From Verrucomicrobiota bacterium (GTDB taxonomy: Bacteria; Verrucomicrobiota; Verrucomicrobiia; Opitutales; UBA2995): DNA of 35,916 nt. The stretch lies in NCBI GenBank assembly GCA_027622555.1, contig JAQBYJ010000058.1:1-35916 (forward strand). The letters are read 5' to 3'. Of this stretch, positions 1 to 35,600 are shown piece after piece. The translations under genes and the position numbers were made by a program. The stretch's first letter is position 1. The number at the start of each line of letters is the position of its first letter. The notes under the pieces were generated by a model that ran no database searches, had not been told where the DNA came from, and was given only the letters and a program-made list of their open reading frames with translations.

Positions 1-2700
1 ACCTCTCCCGGAGAGTCCTCAAGCCTGAACTACGAACCAAAAAAAAGAAAACCTTCCTTCCGGAAGGCTTTTCGAACAGGGTCTAGCACGGAAGGCTTCT
101 CTCAAACGGATCCCAAAATCAGTCTCCAGCGCACGGGCACCAATGCGCTGGAACTCCACATATCGGCAGCAGCAGGTGAATCGTTTCATATCGATACCTC
201 TCCCGACCTGAAAGGGTGGGAGGGTTTGGTCGATGTGGTTACCGGAACAGAACCAACAACGATGGTCATCCCGCTCGGCCCCACTCCCCGGTTTTATCGC
301 CTGACCACAGCCGATAGTGTCTACCTGATCGGCACCCCTGGAGATGATACCATTAACGGCGGCCGCGGAGATGACCAGATTGATGGTGCCGGAGGGAACG
401 ATACGCTCAGCGGGGGATCGGGCAGGGACCGTTTTTTTTATACTTCGGGCGATGCCGATGGGAGCACAGACTTGATCACCGACTTTGTTCCGGGAGAAGG
501 TGGAGACGTCCTGGACCTCACGGGTGTCCTCGATGGAGCCACAGTGGAAAATTTAAACGCCTTTCTGCGAGTAACCAATGACGGTTCCAGCTCCTTGATC
601 AGCATCAACCGGGATGGTCAGGGGGAAGTTTTCGACGACCTCGCCATCAGACTCGAAGGGCACGCTATAACCCAGTCCGACCTGGCAGAATGGTATTCAA
701 ACGGAAATCTCATTATTTCAGAGTTATTCAACTGGGAACCTTCCGGAGGTGACGCCACGATAGACGGGGGTCCCGGGATGGATGTGGTAACGGTCAAAAT
801 CCCGGAACCCGGGCCGGAACAATTACCCTTGGCATTACGTGTTTCGGCTCTACCCGACGGCCGTATAGAAATCAAGCTGTCCGACGATTCCATCCTTATC
901 GTCGAAAACGTCGAAGATCTCATAATCATTGGTACCAGTTTCGATGACCATGTTCTTGTCTCCGGTGATTTCGCCCAAACAGACCTTGCACCTGATACGA
1001 TCCTTATCCAGGGATCCGACGGAGACGACCTCCTGGAGGCCGTTGAACTGACATCCGACCACCACGTTATCATTCGGGGCGAGGGCGGAGATGACACCCT
1101 CATCGGCGGTGCCTCGGACGACGAGCTTGTCGGGGGACCCGGGAACGACCAATTGACCGGCTCCACCGGCTTCGACATCGCGGATTACCCGAACGAATCC
1201 GTCTGGGATTTCATCGTTTCAGACCTTGCACTGGGGAGCGCCTTTGTCACCGATATCAATACGGCCAACGGAGACCTGGGTGTAGATACGCTTGAAGAGA
1301 TTGAAAGAATTTCCTTCAGTGATGCCTTCATTGATCTCGATGGCTTAAATCATGCACCCTTCATCCGTGAGCTCGAAGTAGAAGTCGCCGAAAACGAGCC
1401 TGCGGGACCGATTGGAATGGTGAGCGCTCTGGACGTGGATGGAGATGACCTGGCCTTCGAGATCGTGGAAGGCAACGATGCGGGATTGTTTGCGCTGGAC
1501 AGTTCGACCGGACAACTCTCCACGACTACTGGGTTGGACTATGAGACCTATGGGCGGCACAAGCTGAGTATCCGGGCGGTTGACCCAGGAGGGCGATCAG
1601 TCACAGGCCGGGTAGTAGTCGATGTTTTGGACCGGGCTGACGCAAACGATTCCCTTGCCCCCACACGGCTAGCCGAGATCATCAAGGTTGCCGTCGGCAC
1701 GGGGTCTGACCGGGCACTGGAATCGGTCGCAGGACGCGATGGCGGTTGGTTCCGAGTGGGCTACCAGCAGTACGACATGGACCGATTATTGGTCCAGTCT
1801 TTTGATCCATTCGGTGACCTTTCCCAAAATCCCCATGAGGTGGGTAATTTGAATGTTGGTGGTATCGGGCCAATTAGAACGCTCGATATGTATGACCAGT
1901 TGGTTGGGATCGCCTATCTTGATTTTACGAGCGACTCTGAAGTGCATGCTCGAGTGGAAAGTGGATCCCTTAAACCCGTACAGGGAGGCGCAGCCCTGGA
2001 CATCGAGACTATTCTCCAACTTCAACCGGATTTAATTCTAACCAGTATCACCGGTGAAGGAATCTATGACGACCATCCGAAACTGGAGCGGGCAAACCTT
2101 CCGGTCGTATTGACGGCAGGGTATATGGAATCCCATCCATTAGCCCGATCGGAATGGATAAAAGTAGTCGCAGCGATGGTTGATAAAGAAGATGAGGCAG
2201 GAGCGTTCTTCAACCAGGTTGCACAAAAATACGAATCTCTTAAGGCACTGACCCAGGCCGTTGAAAGGAAACCGACCGTGTTCTCCAACGCCCCCTATGC
2301 CGGAGTATGGCACATCCCCGGGGGAGCAAGTTACAATGCTCAAGCGTTTGCTGACGCAGGATCAAATTACCTATGGGCCACCAACGATTCTCCCGGAGGA
2401 GTCCCTTTGGACTTTGAGGTCATTTTAAACAAGGCAGCCAATGCAGATATATGGTTGAATCCTGGCGCTTATAAAACAAGAGCATCTCTTCTTACGCTTG
2501 ATTCCCGCTTCACTGGCTTTCGATCATTCCGAGAAGGAACCATATTCAATAACTCGCTACGTGTGAACGCACATGGAGGGAACGATATGTGGGAAAGAGG
2601 TATCAACCACCCAGAAGAAGTCCTGGCTGATTTGATTAAGATTTTTCATCCTGAGCTATTACCGGAGCATGAGTTTATTTACTACGAGAAACTGAAATAA
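1..2700 (+). CDS. RTX/cadherin surface protein fused to periplasmic corrinoid-type binding domain (5' partial)
   Basis: The frame is open from the first base with no stop before 2698, so the gene starts upstream; the TTG at 226 is not a convincing start. About 899 residues are visible. In order: a Verrucomicrobia-like beta domain ending in FYRL (residues ~40-100); four RTX nonapeptides (GTPGDDTIN, GGRGDDQID, GAGGNDTLS type, ~111-146) followed by a serralysin-like TDFVPGEGGDVLDL stretch; a second RTX block (~359-394); a cadherin-like domain (~454-545, with AENEP and LDYE motifs); and a C-terminal Peripla_BP_2 (PF01497, BtuF/FepB/FhuD type) domain (~554-895). RTX and cadherin domains bind calcium and occur on secreted or surface proteins; PF01497 domains deliver corrinoids, haem or siderophores to FecCD permeases. 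The permease and ATPase genes follow, so this is probably the transporter's capture protein. Export would need an N-terminal signal outside the window. The ligand is inferred to be corrinoid from the adenosyltransferase downstream; an iron complex is the alternative. Confidence 0.85.
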   Translation, partial: TSPGESSSLNYEPKKRKPSFRKAFRTGSSTEGFSQTDPKISLQRTGTNALELHISAAAGESFHIDTSPDLKGWEGLVDVVTGTEPTTMVIPLGPTPRFYRLTTADSVYLIGTPGDDTINGGRGDDQIDGAGGNDTLSGGSGRDRFFYTSGDADGSTDLITDFVPGEGGDVLDLTGVLDGATVENLNAFLRVTNDGSSSLISINRDGQGEVFDDLAIRLEGHAITQSDLAEWYSNGNLIISELFNWEPSGGDATIDGGPGMDVVTVKIPEPGPEQLPLALRVSALPDGRIEIKLSDDSILIVENVEDLIIIGTSFDDHVLVSGDFAQTDLAPDTILIQGSDGDDLLEAVELTSDHHVIIRGEGGDDTLIGGASDDELVGGPGNDQLTGSTGFDIADYPNESVWDFIVSDLALGSAFVTDINTANGDLGVDTLEEIERISFSDAFIDLDGLNHAPFIRELEVEVAENEPAGPIGMVSALDVDGDDLAFEIVEGNDAGLFALDSSTGQLSTTTGLDYETYGRHKLSIRAVDPGGRSVTGRVVVDVLDRADANDSLAPTRLAEIIKVAVGTGSDRALESVAGRDGGWFRVGYQQYDMDRLLVQSFDPFGDLSQNPHEVGNLNVGGIGPIRTLDMYDQLVGIAYLDFTSDSEVHARVESGSLKPVQGGAALDIETILQLQPDLILTSITGEGIYDDHPKLERANLPVVLTAGYMESHPLARSEWIKVVAAMVDKEDEAGAFFNQVAQKYESLKALTQAVERKPTVFSNAPYAGVWHIPGGASYNAQAFADAGSNYLWATNDSPGGVPLDFEVILNKAANADIWLNPGAYKTRASLLTLDSRFTGFRSFREGTIFNNSLRVNAHGGNDMWERGINHPEEVLADLIKIFHPELLPEHEFIYYEKLK

Positions 2701-2709
2701 GAGAAGGAG

Positions 2710-2739
2710 TAACCGCAGAAAGCACAAGAGGCACAAAAT
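2710..2739 (+). repeat. Left inverted-repeat arm of GxxExxY cassette
   Basis: A 30-bp arm rich in CACAAGAGGCACAAAA. It matches the reverse complement of 3126-3155 at 28 of 30 positions. The ATG of the GxxExxY gene begins at 2738, so this arm supplies the translation start region. It begins 9 bp after the fusion gene stop. Confidence 0.85.
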
Positions 2740-3112
2740 GGAAGAAACGAATATCAACAAATTAGCGGACACGATTAGAGAAATGGCATTTGCGGCGCAT
2801 ACACATTTCAAGAATGGTTTTCTCGAAAAGGTTTATGAGAATTCGCTAAGGAATAGGTTGCGAAAACAAGGATTAAAAGTGGACCAACAGGTTGCAATTC
2901 CTGTCCTGGATGAAGACGATTCTGTGGTTGGAGATTATGTTGCTGACCTAATTGTGGAGGATACGATCCTTATCGAATTGAAAGCCGTTAATGCCATTAC
3001 CAACGAACATTTTGCTCGAGTCCTCACCTATTTGAGAGCCACAAATATTCGTCATGGGATGCTCATAAACTTTGGCTCCACAAAACTCCAAATACGTAAA
3101 TGTATCCAATAG
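2738..3112 (+). CDS. GxxExxY family protein
   Basis: A 124-residue protein with the family signature GFLEKVYENSL near residues 28-38 and a conserved C-terminal half containing YVADLIVEDTILIELKAV and HFARVLTYLRATN. This matches the GxxExxY family (PF13366). The acidic and lysine positions in DLIVE...IELK resemble a PD-(D/E)XK-like core, but biochemical function in this family is not established. It has no signal peptide or membrane segment. It is enclosed by 30-bp inverted repeats (2710-2739 and 3126-3155) and lies between a binding protein and its permease, where no such protein belongs functionally. That points to a mobile or repeat-associated cassette, not a transporter component. The start is the ATG at 2738, inside the left arm. 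Confidence 0.9.
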   Translation: MEETNINKLADTIREMAFAAHTHFKNGFLEKVYENSLRNRLRKQGLKVDQQVAIPVLDEDDSVVGDYVADLIVEDTILIELKAVNAITNEHFARVLTYLRATNIRHGMLINFGSTKLQIRKCIQ

Positions 3113-3125
3113 CCTTCGAAACACT

Positions 3126-3155
3126 ATTTTGTGCCTCTTGTGCATTCTGTGGTTA
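3126..3155 (-). repeat. Right inverted-repeat arm of GxxExxY cassette
   Basis: Its reverse complement matches 2710-2739 at 28 of 30 positions. It ends 7 bp before the permease ATG at 3163, so any ribosome-binding sequence of the permease must lie in or next to cassette-derived DNA. Confidence 0.85.
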
Positions 3156-3162
3156 AATAAAA

Positions 3163-4227
3163 ATGTCTTACCAGTCTCAAGCAACATCCAAGCGGAACCC
3201 GGTCGTACTATTCACCGGTCTTGCCTGGTTGTTGCTGGGGCTTTTCGTGGCAAATGTGGGCCTAGGCTCCGTTTTGATTTCGTTTGGAGATCTTTTTCAA
3301 ATACTAACCGGCAGTTCATCGGCTGACCCAGTGCTAAAACAGATTGTGGTAGATTTTCGACTCCCACAGGCATTGACCGCTCTGCTCTCGGGATCAGCAC
3401 TATCAGCATCCGGATTGTTGATGCAGACTATTTTTCGCAATCCTTTGGCTGACCCATTCGTACTCGGGGTGAATTCGGGAGCAAGTCTAGGTGTGGCGAT
3501 AGTCATTCTAGTCGTAGCTCCAGCTGGACTCGCTTTAACGGAAGGATTGGGACTCAGTGGGAACCTGCTAGTAGTTGTAGCAGCAAGCACTGGCTCAGCA
3601 GGAGTCTTACTCCTTATATTGATTCTGGCCCGAAGCATGGACGTGATGTCGATTCTCATCCTTGGACTCATGATAAGTTACGGAGTCGGGGCTGTGGTTA
3701 GCCTGCTCATGTTTTTTAGTATGCCGACTAAACTTCAGTCGTTCATTACCTGGTCGTTCGGCAATTTCGGAAACGTTACCTGGAGTCAACTTTCCGTATT
3801 CCTCCCGGTTATATTGATAGGGACGCTATCCACACTGCTACTATCGAAACCATTGGATGCTTTGCTGATGGGCGAAAACTATGCTGCCAGTCTGGGAACT
3901 CATGTTAGGCGAATACGCTTTTTCTGTCTCTTAGCTGCCTCTGTCCTGGCTGGAACGGTAACGGGATTCTGTGGTCCCATCGGATTCCTAGGCATCGCTG
4001 CACCCCACCTTTGCCGTTACCTATTTCAGACCTCCGCTCACCGATTGCTCATTCCTGCCTCACTAATAGCCGGAGCTAGCCTTGCTCTTGGAGCGGACCT
4101 TATCGCCAAGGCTCCAGGCTACAGTACCGTCTTGCCACTCAACGCCATCACTGCCCTCTTCGGAGCACCTGTGATTATTGTAGCACTCATCAAGCAGGGT
4201 AGCCTGCGAAACCTTTTTGGGAAATGA
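3163..4227 (+). CDS. btuC: FecCD/BtuC-type ABC transporter permease
   Basis: A 354-residue, strongly hydrophobic protein, normal length for the FecCD family (PF01032), with about nine to ten membrane segments. Family landmarks are visible: [21 protein letters not shown] near the start, [18 protein letters not shown] (~residues 90-107), [15 protein letters not shown] mid-protein, and [17 protein letters not shown] (~267-283), which corresponds to the cytoplasmic coupling loop that contacts the ATPase. It moves corrinoid or a chelated metal across the inner membrane. It overlaps the ATPase gene start by 4 bp (ATGA), indicating translational coupling. The btuC assignment rests on the adenosyltransferase in the same operon; FecCD permeases for haem or siderophores look much alike. 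Confidence 0.9.
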
Positions 4228-34752: not shown

Positions 34753-35192
34753 GGTTGGTTATTAAGAAATAATCGAAGATACTGTAAGAGCGTAAGTATT
34801 CTGGGTGCAACCCTTGCTCTACTGCTTATCCGGATATTATGATAAGGCTTAGTCAAAAACAATTTAACCATTTTCATCATGCTAAACTTCCAATCAATTT
34901 TCCTTCCGGGAATTATTTAAATCTGTACCAACACTGCCTATGCGGTGTCGCCATTACCCAAATCACTTTTTCGAAGACTCGCAATCAAGGGCTAGGACCT
35001 CGTCAGCTACTTCAACGATTCAAATGCGACCAAGGGAAACAAAAAGTTATACTTAAACTACAACAAGTCCGTTCAAGAGGGGCGGGAAAAAGACCATGAC
35101 GCGCTTATAGTAAAGGGTCACGAGAATTGGCCGGAAATGTTAAAGGAATAACGCTAAGCTCTTCAATACAGAGGCAGGAAATTAGGTGTGGA

Positions 35193-35220
35193 AACCACAA
35201 GAAGCTCAGAAGGCACAAAG
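35193..35220 (+). repeat. Degenerate relative of GxxExxY cassette end
   Basis: The sequence (AACCACAAGAAGCTC, then AGAAGGCACAAAG) resembles the left arm at 2710-2739 with several substitutions. No GxxExxY gene is nearby, so this is a solitary or decayed end. Confidence 0.5.
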
Positions 35221-35600
35221 TCTGACACCAAAACCCGCGTGTCTGGATTTGGAGCGGCGTCTTGTTGGAATTTGAGTAGTTGATCTTACGCCGTCGTTGA
35301 AGAACTATGGCGAGATCTGCGAGAAGGGTTCATGGTCATGGGGGAAATCTATCTTTCAGTAGTGGAGATCTAGATGGCTCGACGCAAACAAGATTTAGGA
35401 TCCTGATTTATTTTTTCTCTTCTTTTATTCAACCACCGATGACAGTTAAATTTATATAGCCTAACCATTTCGTGGATCAGTGTGAATTCGTACTACTATC
35501 CGGTAGAATCTTGTTTTTAAAGCAACGTTTTCGTATCCCAGCTCTTCACCACGAACTTCGCGAAAAGCTGGTATTAAAATACGTTCAAAGAAAAATGTTT

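Follow-up and report, generated by a model that had tools for sequence, protein, structure and literature searches.

The GxxExxY proteins form a frequent family without an assigned role, described by the curated models TIGR04256 and PF13366 (PDDEXK_3). Cas4/RecB-family nucleases (SSO0001, LHK-Exo, lambda exonuclease and MGME1) resemble them in fold, in the E/D/ExK catalytic set and, for most GxxExxY members, in a QxxxY-type motif. Several kinds of dispersed element are also comparable. Insertion sequences and transposons are recognized by terminal inverted repeats, empty sites, a transposase gene and target-site duplication, and many classes of them make no such duplication. REP/RAYT systems and MITEs, which are associated with HUH or DDE transposases, have short inverted repeats, gene-less pairs and dispersed intergenic solo copies. 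Free-standing homing endonuclease genes are selfish single nuclease genes in intergenic sites. Finally, 23S rRNA intervening sequences (IVSs) carry an S23/four-helix-bundle ORF; the Coxiella IVS, a selfish element 428 nt long, contains one ORF, has a terminal stem of 28 bp and is cut by RNase III (PMC4990558). In the open-access literature we found a passing mention of GxxExxY, no description of arms or mobility for these genes, and nothing on such cassettes in connection with PDDEXK_3, Cas4 with inverted repeats or miniature repeats in Verrucomicrobia; an earlier description may exist elsewhere.

We analyzed a GxxExxY gene in a 35,916-nt contig (the window) of a Verrucomicrobiota bacterium, whose genome (G000; 6.0 Mb, 238 contigs) we compared with congeners including G001, G004 and G005. 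The gene lies in a plausible operon encoding, in order, an RTX/cadherin-Peripla_BP_2 binding protein, GxxExxY, a FecCD permease, an ABC ATPase, a PduO-type cobalamin adenosyltransferase and a second Peripla_BP_2 protein. A first-pass annotation of the window had described a GxxExxY gene enclosed by 30-bp arms that match at 28 positions, a cassette parting the binding protein from its permease and ending 7 bp before the permease start. The boundaries in Table 1 bear this out.

Table 1 Features of the cassette and its host genes in the window
Feature	Positions	Strand	Basis or remark
RTX/cadherin-fused periplasmic binding protein, Peripla_BP_2 domain (upstream host gene)	226..2700	+	Domain matches
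Left flank, GAGAAGGAG, SD-like	2701..2709	+	From sequence
Left arm	2710..2739	+	TAACC, then three degenerate units GCAGAAA-GCACAAGAG-GCACAAAA
GxxExxY gene, PD-(D/E)XK nuclease fold	2738..3112	+	124 aa; ATG at 2738-2740
Right arm	3126..3155	-	Inverted copy of left arm, 28/30
Right flank, 7 bp, ahead of permease ATG	3156..3162	+	From sequence
FecCD/BtuC-like permease (downstream host gene)	3163..4227	+	Domain matches; ATG at 3163

The same annotation called the host a B12 operon. The domains of the neighboring genes make a role in corrinoid uptake plausible, though they do not prove it. An Rfam scan of the window gave no match, and hence neither a B12 riboswitch nor an rRNA was found. The binding protein itself has an architecture unusual for a B12 or siderophore binding protein, with fused N-terminal RTX nonapeptide and cadherin domains.

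The two arms are 93% complementary and stand 386 nt apart; the left one reads TAACCGCAGAAAGCACAAGAGGCACAAAAT. The GxxExxY start codon begins with this arm's final two bases, A and T, so that the gene's ATG, previously placed wholly within the arm, lies there except for its G. AGAGG within the left arm, at an SD-like distance, could serve as a ribosome-binding site, and with the cassette removed the left flank would stand near the permease start. The arm pair reached a local alignment score of 25.0, compared with maxima of 13.0 in shuffled downstream sequence and 19 in 510 same-length intervals from related loci, and a chance inverted repeat was rejected on these grounds. GxxExxY is the only sizeable ORF between the arms, and no recognizable transposase gene was found inside.

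By the curated models the window protein is a clear member of its family (TIGR04256, E 5.4e-36, 123.5 bits against a curated cut-off of 35; PF13366, E 2.9e-32). It keeps the whole catalytic set, E30, D70 and E80-x-K82. In a family alignment of 42 sequences, E30 and D70 were invariant, E80 was present in 40 (D in the other two) and K82 in 41. The QxxxY motif is also widely kept (Q94 in 39/42, Y98 in 40/42) and is intact, for example, in the G005 protein from site B (L101); the window copy has R94. The structure model of the window protein (pLDDT 95.3) best matched the Cas4-family nuclease SSO0001 (Foldseek E 8.3e-4 to 4ic1_B; for 4ic1_G, VIA Z 9.9, rmsd 4.3 over 101 residues), and the remaining matches were middling and mean little beyond the superfamily. 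The predicted fold of GxxExxY is that of a Cas4/RecB-like PD-(D/E)XK nuclease. Unlike Cas4, the window protein is encoded outside a cas locus, has R in place of Q94, and contains a single cysteine in its 124 residues, which excludes the Fe-S cluster that Cas4 holds with four conserved cysteines. A link to Holliday-junction resolvases was considered and rejected: T7 endonuclease I topped the sequence search at a non-significant E of 0.3-0.6, and Hjc reached only a middling Z of 7. PADLOC gave the window protein no defence annotation. GxxExxY genes were present in 45 of 88 order-level relatives, at up to 10 per genome; Rubritalea, a genus with cultured species, is among the carriers. The dN/dS for the pairs that allowed computation was 0.10-0.19, indicating that the protein is under purifying selection.

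Are the arms a property of this copy or of the family? We scored inverted arms around 86 GxxExxY copies, taken both within the order and in other phyla, and in 510 intervals of the same size from the same loci. At a threshold of 13, arms were found around 67 of the copies (78%) and in five of the control intervals (1%); about a fifth of the copies show none. The best internal self-match fell at 9 or 10 bases in 88/122 arms and in 133/800 random 30-mers; the arms consist of about three degenerate 9-10-bp units. Arm similarity followed protein similarity (Mantel r 0.475, reached in 0/2000 permutations), with a correlation of 0.38 when close pairs were removed and of 0.12 (6/2000) among distant proteins only. 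Between species, arms at the same site retain 83-94% identity even though the genes between them are largely saturated at synonymous sites, an indication that the arms, too, are functional. For concerted evolution of left and right arms the signal was ambiguous, in that identity within a copy did not consistently exceed identity between species.

Further copies within the window's own genome, which had been proposed as a check, were sought with the arm and with the protein. Arm-like 25-mers with at most three mismatches occurred at 15 places, and a reversed control pattern at none. The genome has five GxxExxY matches, three of them full-length. The two other full copies have 30-bp inverted arms of their own, of a different type from the window's (ACTACGAAAAACGCAAAATTACGCGAAAAC), and two fragments are likewise flanked by AACCAC-type sequences. 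One pair of copies (C38 and C192) is 85% identical over 481 bp, a similarity limited to the arm-bounded unit, the flanks being unrelated. In an all-against-all comparison, the window cassette resembled copies at another site (site B) in G001, G005 and G007 from about -28 to +42..+52 around the gene, which is to say to the arms and no further. The terminal inverted repeats bound the unit of similarity, as is required of an insertion sequence or transposon. Gene and arms have evidently been inherited and relocated as a unit. In G006, two copies 2.3 kb apart are 95% identical (dS 0.13). At that locus, two unrelated upstream ORFs (L114:3-1553 and 3185-3871) run on into the left arms and end in a common C-terminal tail, GIDSRK(D/E)RKER; the 9-nt period of the arm preserves the frame.

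The annotation had also called for a search for empty sites. We compared occupancy across species with one genome each, which is not strain-level polymorphism, and most of these genomes are metagenome-assembled drafts in which some sites are obscured by contig ends and Ns. The window site (site A), defined by permease orthologues in G001, G004 and G005, is occupied in G000, G001 and G004 and is empty in G005 only, where the permease gene comes immediately after the stop codon of the binding protein. Site B is occupied in G001, G003, G005 and G007, and the cassette is absent in G000 and G002. Site C, whose flanking genes we take from their peptides to be gatA and gatB, is occupied in G001, G002 and G003, holds a gene-less remnant in G000, and is empty in G004, G005 and G007; the flanks of the empty G005 site are 91 and 93% identical to those of G001. 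Site D is occupied in G001 and empty in G005 (flanks 89%). At a fifth site, with flanks 83-89% identical, the cassette lies in opposite orientations in G001 and G005, reflecting either inversion between the arms or a separate insertion. G005 has probably lost the cassette from sites A and C, as both are occupied in its sister G001 and in congeners further removed. Where site B lacks the cassette, a different palindromic repeat is found, GGAGCGTAGCTTGC-like or AACAGGCAAGATGCCTGTT-like (L177 in G000:C101; L183 in G002:C528), as if this intergenic spot attracted small repeats.

The proposal of a movable unit was supported: the same arms surround other copies, similarity between unrelated loci runs from arm to arm, and some sites are empty. 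The relatives do not all carry the gene, and the arms are not confined to this locus. The picture of a clean, fresh example was not. At site A the copies of G001 and G004 are nearly saturated at synonymous sites. The window copy, which these two congeners have in common with it, is old and not a fresh insertion. It has also lost the conserved Q of QxxxY, and target-site duplication, which was to be looked for, was undetectable among 60 cassettes, whose best match of 0.39 did not exceed the maximum under permutation (0.39-0.43). Its absence is not fatal to a mobile-element reading, because many element classes have none. The gene tree gave no date for the site A insertion. A phage collection yielded no match and plasmids only eight records, which does not establish spread between cells.

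Arms also occur without the gene. A near-perfect gene-less pair with a 24-nt loop lies in G000 (C124:6651-6737) and another with a 10-nt loop in G001 (2795305-2795370); G000 has further pairs on C8 (5810-5917) and C53, and in G007 one gene-less unit is identical at at least three places. These are MITE-like, having the same ends. In G000 and G007, intergenic regions are full of solo arms and of nested arms belonging to several types. Some stretches of G007 (L227 and L228 on C266, L207-L218) carry stacked nested arms of several types, in part mirrored about a gene-less center. In the stretches examined around the 15 arm matches of G000, the only partnered pairs were the window cassette and one gene-less pair.

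On this evidence we consider it fairly probable that the cassette in the window is a minimal mobile element, with ~30-bp inverted arms as its ends and a single GxxExxY nuclease gene whose product would act on them. The nuclease, from this or a related copy, would recognize or process the DNA of the arms, probably in the form of a hairpin, a cruciform or some branched intermediate. Copying into AT-rich intergenic sites would then be finished by the repair or replication machinery of the host, and no target-site duplication would be left. Arm pairs without a gene would represent non-autonomous derivatives, and a cassette between the binding-protein gene and the permease would be tolerated in the operon. 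Like insertion sequences and transposons, the unit has terminal inverted repeats and empty sites; it differs in having neither a transposase gene nor a target-site duplication. The last holds against REP/RAYT systems and MITEs as well, from which the cassette is further set apart by arms of three 9-10-bp units and by a PD-(D/E)XK nuclease in place of an HUH or DDE transposase. Unlike homing endonuclease genes, GxxExxY travels with its arms. That gene and periodic inverted arms form one movable unit gives the family concrete, testable biology, accounts for a large class of the intergenic repeats that these genomes contain, and points to a possible transposition route based on a lone PD-(D/E)XK nuclease. 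More tentatively, GxxExxY elements could constitute a distinct, widespread class of transposable element, driven by a lone Cas4/RecB-like nuclease that recognizes pairs of arms, each with three 10-bp-spaced units, and copies the whole unit without a known transposase; the class would have MITE-like derivatives of its own.

The arm-bounded unit might instead be moved in trans by another enzyme, with GxxExxY as cargo aiding the host or the element in defence or repair. Gene-less pairs and solo arms are common, as with MITEs driven in trans, the GxxExxY fold is that of a nuclease and of no known transposase, and some members of the group weakly match defence-associated PD-(D/E)XK/Cas4 models. Since arm type tracks GxxExxY type, and since a limited search of the 15 arm matches in G000 turned up no transposase cassette among partnered pairs, we regard such a passenger role as unlikely.

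A different role for the arms, which we hold to be quite improbable as the main account, is in RNA: they would pair into a long stem once the operon is transcribed, and RNase III cutting would remove or isolate the insert, as in 23S rRNA IVSs. Pairing of the arms is indeed predicted for the folded RNA (z -4.6), and the RNase III-cut Coxiella IVS is a precedent, alike in having one small ORF, inverted repeats, a stem of ~28-30 bp and a length of about 430-450 nt (PMC4990558). Yet an RNA stem follows from any DNA inverted repeat, and solo arms, dispersal and relocation of the unit are left unexplained; the cassettes also differ from IVSs in lying in protein-coding operons, here in a window with no rRNA match, and in their PDDEXK_3 ORF. 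Such a stem may nonetheless be the reason why the cassette is tolerated in its operon, and in this respect RNA processing may coexist with the mobile element that we favor. That an ordinary vertical gene has REP-like hairpins on both sides by chance fits the location shared with G001 and G004 and their near-saturated synonymous sites, but is scarcely credible and already contradicted by the excess of arms over control intervals, the arm-to-arm similarity at unrelated loci and the empty sites.

Other repeats were seen in the same genomes. A longer dispersed repeat with an arm-like core (gctaagctct..AACCACAAGAAGCKCAGAAGGCACAAAG..CTGACACCAAAACCCGCG..) occurs at positions 35140-35330 of the window and, with L006, L007, L010, L012 and L014, has at least five copies in G000. 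Genes of the four-helix-bundle family TIGR02436 (L142, L137, L147, L141 and others, in G000, G001, G002, G004 and G005) often lie between inverted arms as well. Many of these arms are built of 7-nt units (for instance AGGTGTC four times, GGTTCAGC-like), and about 8 of 19 genes scored at least 13. The GxxExxY and TIGR02436 cassette families, whose arms differ in period, may spread in a common way.
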